DNA of 64,000 nucleotides, from positions 1 through 64,000 of the forward strand of contig DAOUTW010000021.1 of assembly GCA_030668485.1 (NCBI GenBank), written 5' to 3'. This stretch comes from Candidatus Zixiibacteriota bacterium. Lineage in GTDB: Bacteria > Zixibacteria > MSB-5A5 > GN15 > JAAZOE01. This document shows positions 30,638-38,895 of the stretch, one piece after another. The stretch's first letter is position 1; the number at the start of each line of letters is the position of its first letter. Under the pieces are notes generated by a model. The model had not been told where the DNA came from and searched no databases. It was given only the letters and a program-made list of their open reading frames with translations. The position numbers and the translations under genes were made by a program.

Positions 30638-32782
30638 CTATTTTGACAGAATCATTCGCTTCGACGAAGTGTATTCACCGGCTGTCAGGCGGTAGAGATA
30701 TATTCCTGACACAACCTTTTTACCGCTTTTATCACATCCATCCCAGGTTACGGCATGTTCTCCCGCAGGAAGGCGTTTATCCGCAAGGGTGTTGACTTTC
30801 TGGCCGATGATATTGAAGATTTCGAGAGTGACTTCGGCCACCCTTGGAATCGAAAAGCGAATCTCGGTCGATGGATTAAAAGGATTGGGATGATTCTGTG
30901 ACAGCGAATAATCCGATGGTAAAAATGCCTCGTCCCAGTCATTAACGTCACTATAGGTGTCTGTCACCACGATATTGTCATGCAGGTCGGCGGCTTGGAT
31001 TTCAATCAACTCACCAGCACCGGTGTATGAAAACAGGCGGCACATGTTGAATTCCGGAGGATCGGTTACCGGATCAGGATAGACTATAATTCTTGTTATC
31101 CCTGAATCATGTGCATAGCCAAGGTTCAGGTAGGACATTTCGAGATCGAGGGTGGGGATTATTTCTCCCATGAATACCATGTAAACCGCCGCCAGTTTAT
31201 TATACGGTGAGCCAACATAGACGACCCGGCTATCCGGGTGCCAAGTGAAATCAGCTGTGATTGTATCCGGGACGACAGTCCCCTCGCACGGTTCAGCATT
31301 TCCTACAATAACCTGGGCCAGGCGCATAAAATCCTCAAGCCGAAGTGGAATATCGTCGCAATTTACATCACTCGAATATTTACTTGCCTCGACATGAAAA
31401 CCAAAAGCATGGATGCCCTGCAGGAAATAATCTCGAAACATAACCCAGTCGGCGATTTCGTTCGCAAGCCCGTTGACATTAATATCACCACGAGCATCTA
31501 TAGAAAAGCATTGTATTTCGATTCCGCCGTTGATGAAGTCAACGAAGCGGACGGGGGTCACCCTGTCGCCGTCCAGACATGGAACATCCGGGGCGCCCCA
31601 ATAGCCTGGGAATCCGTATTCATAATCCTGAATCTGGCTGCCATCGAAATCGTAGATATGGCGGTTGAGTGCCAGACTGTCACCATGTGGACCCACTGCA
31701 ATGGTGTTATCGCCGCAATCCATCCAGTAGAAACGGATCGGCAGGAATGTGCATTCCAAGGTACGGTCATTGCTGACGAAGAATGTCATTGTGGCGATAT
31801 GATCGACGTTGTCGAGACATTCCCTGTCAGGGTGGTGGGGGCCGTTGTTGGTTTCAGCCATACCGACCAGACGCACCAGACCGGAGGGGCAACTTTCACC
31901 ACAATTGCCATTCCAGTTGTAACGATAGGTGAAGTATTCCCAGCCACAGTCAACAAGCTGCTGGTTCAGGGCGGCTTCGGTGAAGGCCAGCGCCGAAGCG
32001 TTATAGCCGACAAGGAAGTTAAAACCACCCATTGATTCGGAATTGTTTTCCAACATCACATCGACGTCAATAAAGTGGCCCTGAAGAACATCATACCTTT
32101 TCTCAATCCATACTTCGTATTGCCCAGGAACTTTTACATGGATTGTGGCATCTTCATAGGTTATACCGTCACTTACATATACCAAAACCTCATGTTCGCC
32201 CACATCGTCTTCGCCCGGCACCCAGGTATACAGTCCATTATCAGCATCTATCTGGCCCGGGCCTTCTTTCAATGAATATCGAAGGACGTCACAAAAATCA
32301 CGATCTGCAGCTATTGGTAACACACGGAGGGTGTCTCCGACTTCAATCGTATAAGACATGGGATCGATATAAATTTCCGGCGGAGTATTAAAAACAAACA
32401 AATAGACGGTGCAGGTATCGCATCTGCCGGATGATCTATGGCAGGCTTGGATAGAGATAAATTTTGGTCCCGGGACGTCTGTCATCGTCGGATAATAATG
32501 CATTCGGCCGGTGACAGGATCAATATCAATATCGCCATCGACATTGGTTTCGGCTATGGCATACCTGATTTTTGAAGAATTGCCGGTTCCTTCCAGATTG
32601 GTCTCATAATTAAAGCGATAAAAGTAGCAATGATTGACACTTACCGTCGAATCGGGGCAGTTGAGAAACCGGGGGCTGTCGGCCACGCTGACATCGGCCC
32701 CTGCCAGCAAAATCAACACTATACAGGCGAGAGTTATCTTTACAGCCCTAAAATTGCCGTTTAACAATAAGGAACCGGTCAT
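30638..32782 (-). CDS. Secreted multidomain protein with cohesin-like, dockerin-like and C-terminal sorting domains
   Basis: 714 residues from the ATG at 32782, chosen because GGAGGGG lies at ideal distance; an earlier in-frame ATG (32821) does not have one. A signal peptide (ending near VSVADS) is followed by two Ig/cadherin-like domains (to about residue 220), a cohesin-like domain (YNASALAFTEAALNQ...SCPSGLVRLVGMAETNNG...CTFLPIRFYWMDCGD, about 225-400), a dockerin-like pair of helices (SIDARGDINVNGLANEIADW...DVNCDDIPLRLEDFMRLAQ) and, at the end, QNHPNPFNPSTEIRFSIP...SGIYLYRLTAG, a FlgD-like/type IX-style sorting domain. It is likely exported and attached or released at the surface. The function is unknown. 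Confidence 0.85.
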   Translation of the reverse strand: MTGSLLLNGNFRAVKITLACIVLILLAGADVSVADSPRFLNCPDSTVSVNHCYFYRFNYETNLEGTGNSSKIRYAIAETNVDGDIDIDPVTGRMHYYPTMTDVPGPKFISIQACHRSSGRCDTCTVYLFVFNTPPEIYIDPMSYTIEVGDTLRVLPIAADRDFCDVLRYSLKEGPGQIDADNGLYTWVPGEDDVGEHEVLVYVSDGITYEDATIHVKVPGQYEVWIEKRYDVLQGHFIDVDVMLENNSESMGGFNFLVGYNASALAFTEAALNQQLVDCGWEYFTYRYNWNGNCGESCPSGLVRLVGMAETNNGPHHPDRECLDNVDHIATMTFFVSNDRTLECTFLPIRFYWMDCGDNTIAVGPHGDSLALNRHIYDFDGSQIQDYEYGFPGYWGAPDVPCLDGDRVTPVRFVDFINGGIEIQCFSIDARGDINVNGLANEIADWVMFRDYFLQGIHAFGFHVEASKYSSDVNCDDIPLRLEDFMRLAQVIVGNAEPCEGTVVPDTITADFTWHPDSRVVYVGSPYNKLAAVYMVFMGEIIPTLDLEMSYLNLGYAHDSGITRIIVYPDPVTDPPEFNMCRLFSYTGAGELIEIQAADLHDNIVVTDTYSDVNDWDEAFLPSDYSLSQNHPNPFNPSTEIRFSIPRVAEVTLEIFNIIGQKVNTLADKRLPAGEHAVTWDGCDKSGKKVVSGIYLYRLTAGEYTSSKRMILSK

Positions 32783-32838
32783 AATATTTCCCCTCCGCAG
32801 GAAGTCATTTAAAGATAGCAATACCGGGAAGTAGTCCG

Positions 32839-32982: not shown

Positions 32983-34461
32983 CTAATTCTCGGTGCGGTC
33001 GGGGGCTTCCGCATTTTCGTCGTCGGCCGCTGGCGTGGTTACTGATTCGTCTATTACCGGACGGACGCGAGGAAGATTGACGATGAACGAACATCCCTGG
33101 CCCACTTCCGATTCAATTTTGATATTGCCGCCGTGAGCTTTGGCGATTTTGTGGGAGATGAAAAGCCCCAGGCCGGTGCCGCCCGCGCCTTTGGAGGAGA
33201 AGAAGAGACTGAACGCTTTTTCGCGGGTTTCCCGGTCCATACCGATACCGTTGTCGGAAACTTTGAAGGTGACGGTGTCGGTATCGCCGGAAATATCCAT
33301 GGTGATATAATGATCGTCCTTTTGCTTGTCAATCCGGCAGGCATCGAGTGAATTTTCGATCAGGTTGATTAACAGCGATCGGACCGCCTGTTTGTCGACC
33401 TCAAACTGTCCGATATTGCCGTTCACTTTACATTCGAGGCCGATATTAATTTTGCCCGCTTTTTCCTGGAGCATACAGCAGATTTCGCGGCCCATTTCAT
33501 CGGCATTGATTGTTTCCCAATCCGGTTCGCGGTCTTTGGCATAATAAAGGATATCCATGACCATCGACCTGATCCGATCGACATTGCGCAGGGCGATTTC
33601 CCATCCTTTGTCAATCCGTTCGCGGTCGTCTTTCTTCAGGCCGGAATTAACCAGGTAAATCCCACCGTCGAGACCGTTGAGGAGACCTTTGATACCATGC
33701 GAGATTGATCCGATCAGGAGTCCGACCGAGGTCAGTTTATCCTGCAGTTGCCGGATAGGAGTGATATCGGTACTCATCTCAATGACGCGCTCGATATCAC
33801 CGTTGGCATCTCTCAGCGGGGCGGTGGTAACAAGAACATTCATCCGGTTCTTATTACGCGAAGTGACAACTTCCTCGTGAGTGCGGATTTCGCCGTCATC
33901 GAAGGTTTGCCGAACCGGACAGGGCATACATGGCTTGGTGCGATGTTTGTAAACCTCGTAACACATATTGCCGTATGAGGTCCCAAACGCCTCGCGGTGG
34001 AGGCGGTTAGCTTCGACTATCCGAAGGTCCTTATCCTGCATGGAAATATAGCACGGGACCTCCTCGAACAGCAGGCGATAACGATCCTGACTGGCGCGAA
34101 GCTGATCCTGCAGAAGCTTGATTTTGGTGAAATCGGCCGACATTTCCATAACCGACGTAATTTCGCCGTTATCGTCGCGGATCGGCGTCGAGAAGACGAT
34201 GACCCAGACTTCGCGGCCGTCGATGGTCTTTACCAGCTCTTCGCTGCGATGCATCTCGCCGTCCATAAAGGTTCGCTCAACGGGGCAATCCTCACATTTC
34301 TCCGGACGCTTTTTGTAGATTTGATAACAATAGCGACCTTCGTAATCCCCGAAGTTTTTTATGAACCGTTCATTGGCGTTGATGATTTTGAAATCCCGAT
34401 CCTGAACGGTGAGAAAACAGGGCATCGAGTTGAAATATGTCTGGTAAATATTTTCCATCAT
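32983..34461 (-). CDS. Soluble histidine kinase with two CxxC-bearing PAS domains
   Basis: 492 residues; CGAGGTGAT precedes the start, which could be either of two adjacent ATG codons (34461 or 34458). Two PAS domains (about 5-118 and 125-240) each carry CY near the middle and a CxxCP(V) loop: Cys45/Cys56/Cys59 and Cys167/Cys178/Cys181. The kinase core has His255 in ISHGIKGLLNG, the N box NLIENSLDA, DNGIGM and GGTGLGL. No membrane segment is present, so it is cytoplasmic. The paired cysteines suggest redox or cluster/heme sensing, which is inference. It lies 35 bases after the iron-sulfur/receiver fusion gene, and the receiver there is the obvious phosphotransfer partner. Confidence 0.92.
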   Translation of the reverse strand: MMENIYQTYFNSMPCFLTVQDRDFKIINANERFIKNFGDYEGRYCYQIYKKRPEKCEDCPVERTFMDGEMHRSEELVKTIDGREVWVIVFSTPIRDDNGEITSVMEMSADFTKIKLLQDQLRASQDRYRLLFEEVPCYISMQDKDLRIVEANRLHREAFGTSYGNMCYEVYKHRTKPCMPCPVRQTFDDGEIRTHEEVVTSRNKNRMNVLVTTAPLRDANGDIERVIEMSTDITPIRQLQDKLTSVGLLIGSISHGIKGLLNGLDGGIYLVNSGLKKDDRERIDKGWEIALRNVDRIRSMVMDILYYAKDREPDWETINADEMGREICCMLQEKAGKINIGLECKVNGNIGQFEVDKQAVRSLLINLIENSLDACRIDKQKDDHYITMDISGDTDTVTFKVSDNGIGMDRETREKAFSLFFSSKGAGGTGLGLFISHKIAKAHGGNIKIESEVGQGCSFIVNLPRVRPVIDESVTTPAADDENAEAPDRTEN

Positions 34462-34496: not shown

Positions 34497-36233
34497 TTAC
34501 TTCTCATGAACCAGTTCCAGGATCTTTCTGACATTGACCAAGAGACCTTCCTCGGTAATCGGTTTGTCGAGATATCCTTCGGGCGGCAGAACTTGACGAT
34601 CATAAATCAGCTTCCGCAATTCCGGCTTGCCGGTAATAATACATACCGGTATCGATTTCAAATCATCGAGACTCCGCAATTCTTCAAACACCTCGATGCC
34701 GCTCTTACCCGGCATGCTTATATCGAGGGTCATCATATCCGGTTTTTCCTTCTGAGCTATTGCTATCGCCTCATCGCCGCTGTAGGCCTTGAATACGGTG
34801 GCCCCATTATCCTCGAGAATGGCGGAGATGAAGGTTACGATATCAGGCTCATCGTCGATTACGAGTATCTTGCGTCCGGCCAGAGCCTCGGCTTCGGCAG
34901 GGACCTCACCAACCGGCACCGCTACCTTCTTTTCGATTACCAGGGCATTGGCTACCAGGTTGACCAGTTGGGTGACCTGCATGCCGAGTTTGTAATGCTT
35001 GATAAGATCGGCCAGGCCGTCGACGCAGTTGTGACAGGAGGTGACGACGATTTCGGCGCCAGTCGCCTTTAGCTGGTCGGCCTTGATTTTGGCCGATTTT
35101 AGACGTTGTGGTGTGTACTCCGACATCGACATCGCTCCGCCGCCGCCGGTGCAACAATAGTTCTCGGCCCGGTTGGGATACATTTCCCGGAAATCGCTGC
35201 AGACCAGATTCAGTAATTCGCGCGGCTCTTCAGTGAGGCCGCAACTGCGGGCATTGTTGCAGGAATCGTGAAATGTAACCGGAGTGGTGTTTTTGGATTT
35301 GTCGACCTTGATGCGGCCTTCTTTAATATACCGCAGCATGGTGTCGACCGAGCTTTCCATGACGAAATCGACGTTCATTTTGGCCCAGTTCGGTCCCTCG
35401 CAGCGGGTCGAACGATAACCGTGGCCGCATTCGGAGATGACCAGTGTCTTACCGCGAAGTTCGGTCACTTTATCATAAAGCCTTTTGGCTACTGCACCAC
35501 CGAGGTCGTCGTCGCCGGAGAAGAGACCGAAGTTGGTCATATCCCAGCCTTCACTCGGCATGGTCCAGTCTTCTCCCGCCGCATAGAAAATCAGAGCAGC
35601 GTCCGAGATTGTACGGGGATCGTATTTGACCTCGCGGGGGTTGATGGAGTAGACTATGTCGGCATCCATCTTGTCGATCGGGATAGTGGCTTTGGGGTCA
35701 CTGTGTTCGGCCTCCATTTCTTCGGAGAGCCATTCGAGGGTATCGACATAATCTTCTTTAAGGACACCCATCTGGTTGCCGATTTCCCATTGATCTTTAC
35801 TGACAACCGCGACACCTTCAGGCATGACACCGACCGAAACCAGCAGGCCGCGGGCCATACGGTTGAAGGTGGCATAATCGACGCCCATGGGGCAATTGAT
35901 GGAACAGCGCCGGCAATTGGTGCATTTACCGAAGACGGTATCCTTGAGTTCTTCCAGTTCGTCATCGGTATAAACGCTTTTGGCGCTGACCCACCAGGGG
36001 ATAACTCGGCCGGTCCAGTCGAAATGGCGTTTGAAGAGCTTTCTTATCTTATCGGCTTTGTAGGCCGGGGCATAGGTCACGTCACCCGGATTGGCCAGCA
36101 CGTAATGGCAGGCGTCGGTGCACATGCCGCAATGGACACAGGCGGCCAGCGATCCGACCATCTGGCGGTTGAGTTTTTTGCCCATCCGTTCAAGGACTTT
36201 TTGCGCTTTATATGATCTGACGTTGTTATTCAT
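34497..36233 (-). CDS. HdrD/TmcB-like iron-sulfur oxidoreductase fused to a response-regulator receiver domain
   Basis: 578 residues from the ATG at 36233 (GGAGATAAAG upstream); an earlier in-frame start lies inside the preceding gene. Two [4Fe-4S] motifs come first: Cys32-35-38-42 (CVHCGMCTDAC) and Cys104-107-110-114 (CTNCRRCSINC). Then an HdrD-type cysteine-rich region: ECGHGYRSTRC, FHDSCNNARSCG, YCCTGGGGA, SCHNC. Residues 453-578 are a complete receiver: Asp460/Asp461, phospho-acceptor Asp504 (TLDISMPGKSG), Thr534 and Lys557 (GYLDKPI). The front part matches TmcB/HmcF/DsrK-type subunits, which exchange electrons with a membrane cytochrome b. The membrane partner is encoded just upstream. 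A receiver attached to such an enzyme suggests control of electron flow by phosphorylation. Confidence 0.93.
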   Translation of the reverse strand: MNNNVRSYKAQKVLERMGKKLNRQMVGSLAACVHCGMCTDACHYVLANPGDVTYAPAYKADKIRKLFKRHFDWTGRVIPWWVSAKSVYTDDELEELKDTVFGKCTNCRRCSINCPMGVDYATFNRMARGLLVSVGVMPEGVAVVSKDQWEIGNQMGVLKEDYVDTLEWLSEEMEAEHSDPKATIPIDKMDADIVYSINPREVKYDPRTISDAALIFYAAGEDWTMPSEGWDMTNFGLFSGDDDLGGAVAKRLYDKVTELRGKTLVISECGHGYRSTRCEGPNWAKMNVDFVMESSVDTMLRYIKEGRIKVDKSKNTTPVTFHDSCNNARSCGLTEEPRELLNLVCSDFREMYPNRAENYCCTGGGGAMSMSEYTPQRLKSAKIKADQLKATGAEIVVTSCHNCVDGLADLIKHYKLGMQVTQLVNLVANALVIEKKVAVPVGEVPAEAEALAGRKILVIDDEPDIVTFISAILEDNGATVFKAYSGDEAIAIAQKEKPDMMTLDISMPGKSGIEVFEELRSLDDLKSIPVCIITGKPELRKLIYDRQVLPPEGYLDKPITEEGLLVNVRKILELVHEK

Positions 36234-36267
36234 CTTTATCTCCAATACTTGATCTTTACACAGCTTT

Positions 36268-36954
36268 TCAGTTCTGAGTTCGAGGAGCACGCCGAATCGG
36301 ATAGACTCCGCGATGACCCATGGTTCTGCCCAGGTAGTACCGCGTGAATGGATAATACAGGTAATGCGATATCTTGCTGAAGGGCACGTACATCAAGAAG
36401 AATGCGGTCAGGAAGAAATAGGTCAGCAGATGCCATTCACCGTTGACGGTGCTGTTGGGAACGGCAAAGAAGGCAAAACCGAACCAGACTGTCAGAAGCA
36501 GAAGGGAGAAATAATCATCGGGGGTGCTGATTGCCCTGATATATTTGGCGAAAATACGGCGGATCATCCGGCCAACGCCGATGGCGAAGGCGGCGCCGAC
36601 GGAAATCTGCAAGATCAGAACCAGAAGTGAAGATTCAAGCAGCGATGGGGCGTATGGGATGACAAATGACAACCCGATGGCGGACACGACTCCGAGGTGG
36701 AAAAGTACGAATTGAATGTAAAAGAAAAACTGGGTACGGGTACTTTCCATCGCCCACGGTGACGCGATATTCAGCCAGGAATATATTATTCCCCTACGGG
36801 GGGTTGTATATCCTGCCGTACCGGTCGGCGCCTGGCGGTCACCTCCGGCTTTGAACCGTAACAGCCAGGTAAGGCGCAGGGTATAGACGATAGCCATAAA
36901 CACCAGGGCAACCTCCTGGAGAATATGCTCGGAAAAATGCAAGAGATCGCTCAC
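36268..36954 (-). CDS. NarI/TmcC-like membrane cytochrome b subunit
   Basis: 228 residues from a GTG at 36954 with a perfect ribosome site (AAAGGAGGCGTT); the start overlaps the macrodomain gene stop as GTGA. Five to six hydrophobic segments with well-placed His residues (LHFSEHILQ at the start, FHLGVVSAIG, WHLLTYFFLT, KISHYLYYPFTRYY at the end) fit a diheme membrane subunit like TmcC/DsrM/NarI. This would exchange electrons between the quinone pool and the iron-sulfur subunit encoded next. Together they resemble Tmc or Dsr membrane modules of sulfate reducers but without a multiheme cytochrome c gene beside them. Confidence 0.87.
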   Translation of the reverse strand: MSDLLHFSEHILQEVALVFMAIVYTLRLTWLLRFKAGGDRQAPTGTAGYTTPRRGIIYSWLNIASPWAMESTRTQFFFYIQFVLFHLGVVSAIGLSFVIPYAPSLLESSLLVLILQISVGAAFAIGVGRMIRRIFAKYIRAISTPDDYFSLLLLTVWFGFAFFAVPNSTVNGEWHLLTYFFLTAFFLMYVPFSKISHYLYYPFTRYYLGRTMGHRGVYPIRRAPRTQN

Positions 36955-37502
36955 AACGCCTCCTTTACGGTTTGACCCAGAGCGGCAAAGCGCGCCTGGA
37001 AAGGTTCATATTCACGGGTGTCGAGAAGCCAAAGGCTGATTTCTTTGATAGCGGTTTGGCCTTTAAGGTATTCAGCAATGGTACTGATGGTTATGTCGGC
37101 GCTCAACTCCAGCGGCACGCCGTAAAATCCGCAGCACATGGCCGGGAAGGCGACCTGAGAGATATTGGCCTCATCCGCTTTCTTTAAGATGTTCTCGACA
37201 GTCTTTTTCAGCTTACCTTCAGTATCTTCTTCCATAAACATCGGTCCCACGGCATGGATAATATAATTCGATTTCATCTCACCGGCCGATGAAATCACCA
37301 CTTCGGTGGTTTTGATCGGGGCCAGATCATTCAATTCTTTCTGTATCGATGGACCGCCTCGAATTGTAATGGCGGTTCCGAATCCTGAGCCCAGTTTCAG
37401 ATCGTTTTGGGCGCAGAAAACAAATGAATCGACTTCGAGGTCCGCGATGTCCCCTATTTGCAGACTAAAAGTCGTATTTCCGATTTTTAATGATTCGGAC
37501 AT
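36951..37502 (-). CDS. Macrodomain protein
   Basis: 183 residues. The macro (ADP-ribose-binding) fold is clear: GDIADLEVDSFVFCAQNDL at the start, a Gly-rich GSGFGTAITIRGG in place of the usual GGGVAGAI loop, YIIHAVGPMF and VAFPAMCCGFYGVPLE later. These proteins bind or remove ADP-ribose, O-acetyl-ADP-ribose or related nucleotides. GAGGAGAGGT lies before the ATG. The stop overlaps the membrane cytochrome b gene, so the two are translationally coupled, an unusual partnership. A hydrolase activity cannot be decided from sequence. Confidence 0.9.
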   Translation of the reverse strand: MSESLKIGNTTFSLQIGDIADLEVDSFVFCAQNDLKLGSGFGTAITIRGGPSIQKELNDLAPIKTTEVVISSAGEMKSNYIIHAVGPMFMEEDTEGKLKKTVENILKKADEANISQVAFPAMCCGFYGVPLELSADITISTIAEYLKGQTAIKEISLWLLDTREYEPFQARFAALGQTVKEAL

Positions 37503-37588: not shown

Positions 37589-38356
37589 CTATGCTGCCCC
37601 CGTAATACACTCCTTCAGTTGGTGGATGGAAAACGGCCGGGTTATCCAGCCGCAGACTTCTTTATCACAATATTGTTTCAATTGGCTTGTTTTTGATGCC
37701 AGGATGATTCTTACCACCGGAATTCTGGCGTCATTGAATAAGTTCGTACAGACGGCTGCCGTGCGTTTTTTCCCCAATGCACAATCGACGACAATATAAT
37801 CGGGCCTGAAATTCTGGATTATATTGGAACATTCATATTCGCTCATCGCCACCTGGATACGAAATCCGTTGAGACCCTGACCCTGACGCCAGTCTTTTAC
37901 CAGACGACCGCTCTCGCTGAGGAATATGATATTGAGGTCTTGCTCATTGGTCATCCGATAATAATCGCAGTCTTTACAGGTCGATTTACAATAGACGCGC
38001 AGGCATCCCAGCCCCTCCGGCAGGTCGCGCAACTCGTAGCACCGGCGCGTGCGTGAGCGATAGGTGATGCAGTCGAGGCAATCGGGCTGGATATCTTTTC
38101 CCCGGGCCAAATATTCCCAACAATACTGGTAGGCGGATGAGTGCGAATCATGGGGGGGAGCAGCTATAACATTTACTGTCTCTGATTCGGTTAATCCCAG
38201 TGCAGAACGAGGAATACGGAAATGGCCTCCCAGAGTGCGCGTCGCCTCGATCTTGCCGGCCTTAACCCACTTCAGTACTGTATCTGGAGCTACCGAAAGC
38301 AGTTCCGCCGCCTGAGAGGTGGTGAGAAACTCTTTTTGTTTGCTCGAGTCGGCCAT
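37589..38356 (-). CDS. Cys-rich DNA-binding regulator: excisionase-type HTH plus degenerate receiver-like domain
   Basis: 255 residues. Residues 10-55 are a MerR/excisionase-type helix-turn-helix (TTSQAAELLSVAPDTVLKWV, ATRTLGGHFRIP). A central segment (about 78-135) has eight cysteines spaced as C-x13-C-x2-C, RRC, GC, YC, C-x2-C, with a CWEY start like the CW-type cysteine motifs of some sulfate-reducer proteins; it probably binds metal or a cluster. The C-terminal 115 residues look like a receiver with the acceptor Asp kept (PDYIVVDCAL) but the acidic pocket (FLSESG) and the Lys (ITRPFS) changed. It begins the row of genes down to the histidine kinase and is the natural transcription factor for it. 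Confidence 0.85.
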   Translation of the reverse strand: MADSSKQKEFLTTSQAAELLSVAPDTVLKWVKAGKIEATRTLGGHFRIPRSALGLTESETVNVIAAPPHDSHSSAYQYCWEYLARGKDIQPDCLDCITYRSRTRRCYELRDLPEGLGCLRVYCKSTCKDCDYYRMTNEQDLNIIFLSESGRLVKDWRQGQGLNGFRIQVAMSEYECSNIIQNFRPDYIVVDCALGKKRTAAVCTNLFNDARIPVVRIILASKTSQLKQYCDKEVCGWITRPFSIHQLKECITGAA

Positions 38357-38763
38357 TTCTGAGCTTTCTGAATTTTATGAGTTTTTTATAATATATCGAC
38401 TGAAAATTCTCTGTCAATAGGTTTTCGTGATTTTTTTCACAATTCTACCTAAGGCATTGATATCCTTAGAGATATATTTCCTAAAATAATCCATGAAATC
38501 CGTGATTGGCACCCTATATTATCGTTTTTCTGGAAATTATCGTTGAATTTTTGATGAGATTCGCCAGGTGCCGCACCGCTTGCGGTGCGAATTCTTGCTC
38601 AGTGATTGTCGCGCTTCATAGGGGCCAGACCTCAAGTATTTAATAGAGTTTTCCATCAATAACTTTTAATCAACTTTTTCAACAAGCCCTTTGGCAGTGT
38701 AATATGTGATTAACCAACCCGACATCTATTCGCGGTTTACAAGCCCATATTCAAGCCATATAC
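38357..38763. other. Gene-free AT-rich region with a palindrome
   Basis: No coding sequence supported. It contains the promoter side of the leftward redox gene row and a perfect hairpin CGCACCGC-TT-GCGGTGCG (38572-38589). The left copy of an imperfect inverted repeat begins at 38616. Confidence 0.6.
38616..38632 (+). repeat. Left inverted repeat of a possible small mobile element
   Basis: TCATAGGGGCCAGACCT. Its reverse complement recurs at 39695-39711 with 13 of 17 bases identical; all four differences are transitions. The pair encloses the tandem repeats and the 207-residue gene. Confidence 0.5.
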
Positions 38764-38895
38764 GCGGCAGCCAAAATGTGGCCCCTGCCACCGCGACAGC
38801 CCGAAATGTGGCCCCTGCCACCGCGGCAGCCAAAATGTGGCCCCTGCCACCGCGGCAGCCAAAATGTGGCCCCTGCCACCGCGACAGCCCGAAAC
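38764..38895. repeat. Tandem repeat array, four 29/30-bp units plus a partial fifth
   Basis: Units begin at 38764, 38793, 38823 and 38852, with a truncated copy at 38881. The shared core is GTGGCCCCTGCCACCGCG. Units 1, 3 and 4 begin GCGGCAGCCAAAAT (29 bp); unit 2 and the partial copy begin GCGACAGCCCGAAA (unit 2 is 30 bp). Where a unit meets the GCGGCAG type, CTGCC and GGCAG can pair around ACCGC, so the array can form hairpins. It is not a CRISPR: there are no spacers. Confidence 0.9.

Follow-up and report, generated by a model that had tools for sequence, protein, structure and literature searches.

A gene in the 64,000-nucleotide stretch of Candidatus Zixiibacteriota DNA analysed here (the window) encodes a respiratory-type iron-sulfur subunit with a complete phospho-receiver domain fused to its C-terminus. 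Around the fused gene lies a conserved cassette that goes with dissimilatory sulfur metabolism, and the fusion recurs in many bacterial phyla, confined almost wholly to genomes respiring sulfur compounds. The usual targets ascribed to two-component systems are transcription, second messengers and motility. We read the cassette as encoding a quinone-linked oxidoreductase, probably directed at DsrC, that may be tuned after translation by kinase-to-receiver phosphotransfer, and we put the probability of this reading at about one half. If true, it would mean direct phospho-control of respiration, with a receiver joined covalently to an enzyme of energy metabolism and provided with its own kinase in some 15 phyla, and it would give a testable handle on how sulfate and sulfite reducers adjust electron flow to DsrC.

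Domain architecture of the fused protein

The first-pass annotation had described one uninterrupted frame joining [4Fe-4S] and CCG motifs to a full receiver, and Pfam bears this out within a single minus-strand frame (Table 1). The open reading frame is longer from a GTG start (34497-36290) than from the ATG at 36233 (34497-36233). Fer4_8 matches at residues 29-118 (42.3 bits against a cut-off of 27), the CCG domain PF02754 at residues 319-403 (43.8 against 20.6) and Response_reg PF00072 at residues 456-567 (73.9 against 30.2). Both PF02754 and a Fer4 dicluster model score over their curated cut-offs, identifying a CCG/4Fe-4S dicluster protein, and the PF00072 match of the tail is accompanied by the conserved DD, D, T/S and K of a receiver. 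Across 40 aligned relatives, fused and unfused, C325, C360, C361, C400 and C403 are invariant and C331 is kept in more than 90%; the CCG domain is the probable site of a non-cubane cluster. Further cysteines, C269 and C278, lie upstream of it.

The receiver has its phospho-acceptor at D504 (codon 34722-34724) and an acidic pocket at D460/D461, and also carries E462, T534 and K557; the positions first listed for it (Asp460/461, Asp504, Thr534 and Lys557) are correct in the translated frame. In an alignment of 82 fusions, D460, D461, E462 and K557 are kept in every ungapped row, D504 is present in 82/82, and position 534 is T in 72 and S in 10. Because the catalytic residues are invariant across phyla and the motifs of the adjacent kinase are intact, the receiver is probably active, as had been proposed. 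An AlphaFold2 model (mean pLDDT 85.7) gives it a confident (beta-alpha)5 fold, and Foldseek matches it to DivK, Spo0F and PhoB and the redox part to EtfD, LutA and HdrB. Among the relatives compared, the linker between the two parts is as short as 9 residues and as long as about 31. Its flexibility suggests that the regulatory domain is mobile and could affect docking, assembly or how accessible the CCG site is.

Table 1. Features of the fused gene and its cassette in the window.
Feature	Position	Strand	Details
HdrD-like (HmcF/TmcB/DsrK branch) Fe-S subunit with C-terminal phospho-receiver	34497..36233	-	578 aa
First [4Fe-4S] motif, C32-x2-C35-x2-C38-x3-C42	36108..36140	-	Invariant in 40 aligned relatives, fused and unfused
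Second [4Fe-4S] motif, C104-x2-C107-x2-C110-x3-C114	35892..35924	-	Invariant in the same alignment of 40 relatives
CCG domain, residues 319-403	35025..35279	-	PF02754; C325, C331, C360-C361, C400, C403
Linker, residues 436-453	34875..34928	-	Variable in length and sequence; pLDDT <50 at 437-448
Receiver domain, residues 454-575	34509..34874	-	PF00072; residue invariance; (beta-alpha)5 in the model
Soluble PAS-PAS histidine kinase	32983..34461	-	492 aa; Cys triads C45/C56/C59 and C167/C178/C181
HmcE/TmcC-like cytochrome b membrane anchor	36268..36954	-	At least 4 TM segments; conserved H86 and H197
Macro-domain protein	36951..37502	-	PF01661, E 2.3e-24; 4-bp overlap with the anchor gene
Excisionase/MerR-type DNA-binding protein	37589..38356	-	Conserved Cys cluster and degenerate receiver
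Promoter-like TTGACA-16-TATATT	38390..38417	-	Upstream of the five-gene run; consensus match only

Class of the redox subunit

The best curated NCBIfam models for the redox part are the equivalogs HmcF (NF045711, 337.1 bits against a cut-off of 750), TmcB (NF045724, 314.4 against 735) and DsrK (NF045796, 255.1 against 400), each matched below its cut-off. HdrD of HdrDE, which reduces the heterodisulfide CoM-S-S-CoB, has two CCG domains, whereas the fusion has the single stretch at 319-403. Annotation as HdrD, HmcF, TmcB or DsrK was rejected. The cassette holds no tmcA-like gene, and the HmcA cytochrome, HmcB ferredoxin and HmcC of the Hmc complex are absent from it. The description as a respiratory-type redox subunit is supported. 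As for "HdrD-type", an Fe-S/CCG oxidoreductase subunit is what we find, but it has one CCG domain, belongs to an HmcF/TmcB/DsrK-like branch and is not a methanogen-type HdrD; HdrD is used below as a loose name only. For the receiver, the best specific family is DVU0259_DivK (NF045717), at 80.5 bits against a cut-off of 160.

Recurrence and origin of the fusion

Twelve other genomes from the order of the source genome have full-length fusions, at 59-85% identity. Scanning 84,980 species genomes yielded 198 relatives, of which the best 80 were kept; all of these best 80 span both parts (64-87% identity), and 78 of them hold the CCG domain and the receiver in one frame. By record taxonomy the 78 loci fall in 15 named phyla (16 loci have no phylum there), including Zixibacteriota (14), Acidobacteriota (12), Myxococcota (9), Thermodesulfobacteriota (6) and Planctomycetota (5). 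The first-pass annotation had named an assembly error at the junction near 34870 as a possible refutation, which is ruled out by the recurrence of the junction in the 12 genomes of the order and in the best 80 loci. A chance fusion is rejected by the same recurrence, and a fusion unique to the source genome by the many other carriers. Judging from record titles, the best 80 loci all come from metagenome-assembled or uncultured genomes, so the fusion may have been missed in Desulfovibrio-centred work.

Separate proteins in relatives had likewise been put forward as a ground for refutation. They do exist in two distant loci (L148 and L149, 46-47% identity), where the order is HmcE-HdrD-RR-HK-RR (RR, response regulator; HK, histidine kinase) with 53-70 bp between HdrD and RR, and they explain where the fusion came from rather than refute it: the fused gene is an anchor-HdrD-RR-HK-RR arrangement that has been joined. 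Receiver-less relatives form two groups. One (40-43% identity) consists of an anchor-HdrD pair with a DsrC-like gene. The other (L137-L139 and L143/L144/L146) is nested inside the fused clade in trees and has lost the receiver; within it, L137-L139 have a DsrC-like gene and are without the cassette kinase type, and L143/L144/L146 (63-65% identity), with no fused receiver, have an operon that also encodes a separate RR, a PAS kinase and Usp-like and HEAT-repeat-like proteins. Alternative C-terminal domains were considered for three long Acidobacteriota frames (G277, G254 and G181) and rejected: the proteins are simply without a receiver, and in the two longest the excess length lies upstream of the start.

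Related arrangements are also found elsewhere in the genome from which the window comes. One contig (C51) carries an Hmc-like cluster with RR-HK-RR, another (C40) an anchor-HdrD pair with a separate RR, and a third (C57) true dsrMKOP together with dsrC, dsrN and dsrAB, its genuine DsrK scoring 744.9 bits. With these dsr genes and an aprA, which the genome also encodes, the organism looks like a sulfate reducer.

The conserved cassette

In order of transcription, the window encodes an excisionase-type helix-turn-helix (HTH) protein, the macro protein, the HmcE/TmcC-like anchor, the fusion and the PAS-PAS kinase. All 78 fused loci have the anchor, 75 have the macro protein and 73 have the kinase. 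For the anchor, the matches to NF045716 (E 5.6e-10) and to NF045723 (E 3.1e-9) fall short of the cut-offs. No transmembrane stretch is predicted in the kinase of the window; its H255, N366/N370, D403xG405xG407, G428/G430/G432 (G2) and both cysteine triads are invariant in every aligned row. Of the 67 loci with enough sequence, 55 have a stand-alone RR after the kinase, and no such gene is found after the kinase among the open reading frames of the window.

The upstream regulator varies, being the HTH protein in about 21 loci and elsewhere an Rrf2-family protein or a sigma-54 activator; Rrf2-family genes lie near the cassette in 21 loci. The HTH protein of the window is the likely operon regulator and possibly redox-sensing. 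Its cysteine cluster comprises C79, C93, C96, C106, C123, C127 and C130.

Link to dissimilatory sulfite reductase

Among 60 genomes of the same order, dsrA is present in 14/14 fusion carriers (in one of which, G051, the fusion is interrupted by an apparent frameshift) and the fusion in 0/34 dsrA-negative genomes (Fisher 5.6e-7). Twelve dsrA-positive genomes of the order are without the fusion, which is therefore accessory and not required for sulfite reduction. In 199 Acidobacteriota, 8/8 carriers have dsrA and the fusion occurs in 0/179 dsrA-negative genomes (p 2.4e-9, or 2.4e-8 when the centre genome is left out), and in 247 genomes around a Syntrophaceae MAG, 122 of them dsrA-positive, dsrA accompanies 9/10 carriers (p 0.009); all three Fisher tests ignore relatedness, and the association is partly phylogenetic. 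Across phyla, dsrA scores over its cut-off in 43/50 carriers, and some of the seven genomes that show no dsrA are incomplete.

In three Syntrophaceae loci (L072, L081 and L102) and one of Zixibacteriota (L049) the cassette is flanked by dsrAB/dsrN upstream and dsrMK(O) downstream. A dsrC with both C-terminal cysteines is found directly upstream of the cassette in these four loci and in L099.

Relation to known systems

Rrf1 is a response regulator. The hmc cluster of Desulfovibrio vulgaris contains rrf1 and rrf2, which regulate hmc expression (PMC10924467, citing Keon 1997). The cassette resembles Hmc in the branch of its Fe-S subunit, its HmcE-type anchor and its nearby Rrf2-family genes. It is, however, without hmcA-D and has a macro protein and a PAS-PAS kinase. 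Its receiver is built into the enzyme; the Hmc regulator, in contrast, is a protein of its own that controls expression.

The tmc neighbourhood, with its HdrD, Usp-like and HEAT-like genes, RR and PAS kinase, resembles the receiver-less loci L143/L144/L146. The likeness of the fusion to this system lies in its TmcB score and in the receiver's best specific family, DVU0259_DivK; it differs in that the TmcA cytochrome is missing, the receiver is fused and the scores lie below the cut-offs. The function of Tmc and Hmc is treated in PMC4215793. With DsrMK and dsrM2K2 the cassette shares a quinone-linked cytochrome b and a CCG/[4Fe-4S] subunit, and in several genomes it stands beside dsrAB-N-C/dsrMKO, but the fusion falls short of the DsrK cut-off and the true DsrK of the source genome is a separate gene.

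One paper already describes dsrMK paralogs close to dsrAB (PMC6018796), and another surveys the phylogeny and synteny of DsrMK (PMC10504309); neither the former paper nor the main text of the latter mentions a response regulator or histidine kinase. Response regulators with enzymatic output (PF00072 plus an effector) likewise hold a complete phospho-receiver in cis with an effector, which here differs in being the redox subunit of a membrane complex. A covalent CCG/receiver fusion is not described in the openly accessible literature searched.

Pairing of the kinase with the fused receiver

In three acidobacterial loci (L123, L125 and L126) the receiver and the kinase have been exchanged as a pair. 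Compared with L079, the anchor (65% identity), macro protein (61-64%) and downstream RR (57%) of L123 and L125, and their HdrD (81%, measured for L123), are as close as usual or closer. By contrast, the receiver of L123 is only 31% identical to that of L079 (usual 60%) and its kinase 42% (usual 61%); L126 shows the same joint divergence of receiver and kinase relative to the window, its HdrD again being unaffected. Phylogenetic trees make the HdrD proteins of L123 and L079 sisters (100/100), put the receivers of L123 and L125 in another lineage and leave their kinases outside the main kinase clade. The stand-alone RR of L123 and L125 was not exchanged. This joint divergence of receiver and kinase, which the other cassette genes do not share, makes the adjacent kinase the probable partner of the fused receiver. 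The two are contiguous, so a single recombination could explain the exchange without selection for pairing. The three loci represent a natural domain swap useful for the study of kinase specificity.

Distance-based coevolution gives modest support to the same pairing. The kinase DHp follows the fused receiver at about 0.65-0.66 and the stand-alone RR at 0.14; without the diverged loci the values are 0.43 and 0.30, so the signal is partly driven by the loci with exchanged receiver and kinase. Mutual information at residue level, over 64 kinase-receiver pairs (effective 46), returned low-entropy artefacts only.

Proposed mechanism and alternatives

In the reading that we favour, the heme-b anchor and the Fe-S subunit would form a small quinone-linked membrane oxidoreductase, exchanging electrons with a cytoplasmic thiol/disulfide partner in sulfite or sulfate reduction. 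This partner is most probably DsrC, as suggested by the pairing of unfused sister HdrD proteins with a DsrC-like gene. The PAS domains of the adjacent soluble kinase are rich in cysteine and probably respond to redox state, a metal or an Fe-S cluster. This kinase would phosphorylate the tethered receiver at D504 and so change how active the complex is, how it docks its partner or how it is assembled. Electron flow would then be tuned post-translationally and not via transcription. More tentatively, sulfur-respiring bacteria from many phyla may use the respiratory complex as a two-component node: a cytoplasmic kinase that senses redox state would phosphorylate the receiver in a quinone:DsrC oxidoreductase, with the macro protein, as an ADP-ribose-binding protein, serving as an extra input, and so switch electron flow into sulfite reduction, or else the complex would report its own redox state through the kinase.

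That last possibility leads to the main rival of direct control, in which signals run the other way: the redox complex would be the sensor, its receiver would dock the kinase at the membrane complex or act as a phosphate sink, and the output would pass through the stand-alone RR and linked transcription factors. The frequency of the stand-alone RR, which could be the real output, counts against direct control and for this reversal, which is also favoured by the DNA-binding regulators upstream (HTH with Cys cluster, Rrf2, sigma-54 activators) and by the RR-HK-RR of the Hmc-type cluster in the window's own genome. We nevertheless regard it as rather unlikely: the window has no RR after its kinase, the kinase of L123 and L125 changed with the fused receiver and not with the stand-alone RR, and kinase DHp distances track the fused receiver better, though by a smaller margin without the diverged loci. 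Direct control is also weakened by an Elusimicrobia record (L111) in which the fusion has no adjacent kinase.

Two further readings concern the receiver and the electron route. The receiver may be a passive passenger of a fusion between adjacent genes, kept for folding, localisation or stability and taking no part in signalling, which would suit a variable, disordered linker and an HdrD core that does without a receiver in sister lineages. This is very improbable given that the phospho-chemistry residues are invariant while the remainder of the receiver varies, that the adjacent kinase is conserved and intact, and that loss of the receiver in L137-L139 coincides with absence of the cassette kinase type. 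Compatible with either direction of signalling, the complex may instead be a periplasm-to-cytoplasm conduit of Tmc/Hmc type, not directed at DsrC, as its two best curated models, HmcF and TmcB, would have it; the absence from the cassette of an hmcA/tmcA-type cytochrome, HmcB and HmcC, and the dsrC or DsrC-like genes adjoining fused and unfused members, make this decidedly unlikely.

Additional observations

In L111 a protein with two tandem DsrC/TusE-like domains is encoded directly after the fusion (L111:9754-10500). At the place where most relatives have the stand-alone RR, the window encodes a secreted-type protein with an FlgD-like/type IX sorting C-terminus (30638-32821). Upstream of the operon, three near-identical GTGGCAGGGGCCACATTTTGGCTG repeats at 38778-38879 are terminator-like on the minus strand and lie at the edge of a repetitive open reading frame.
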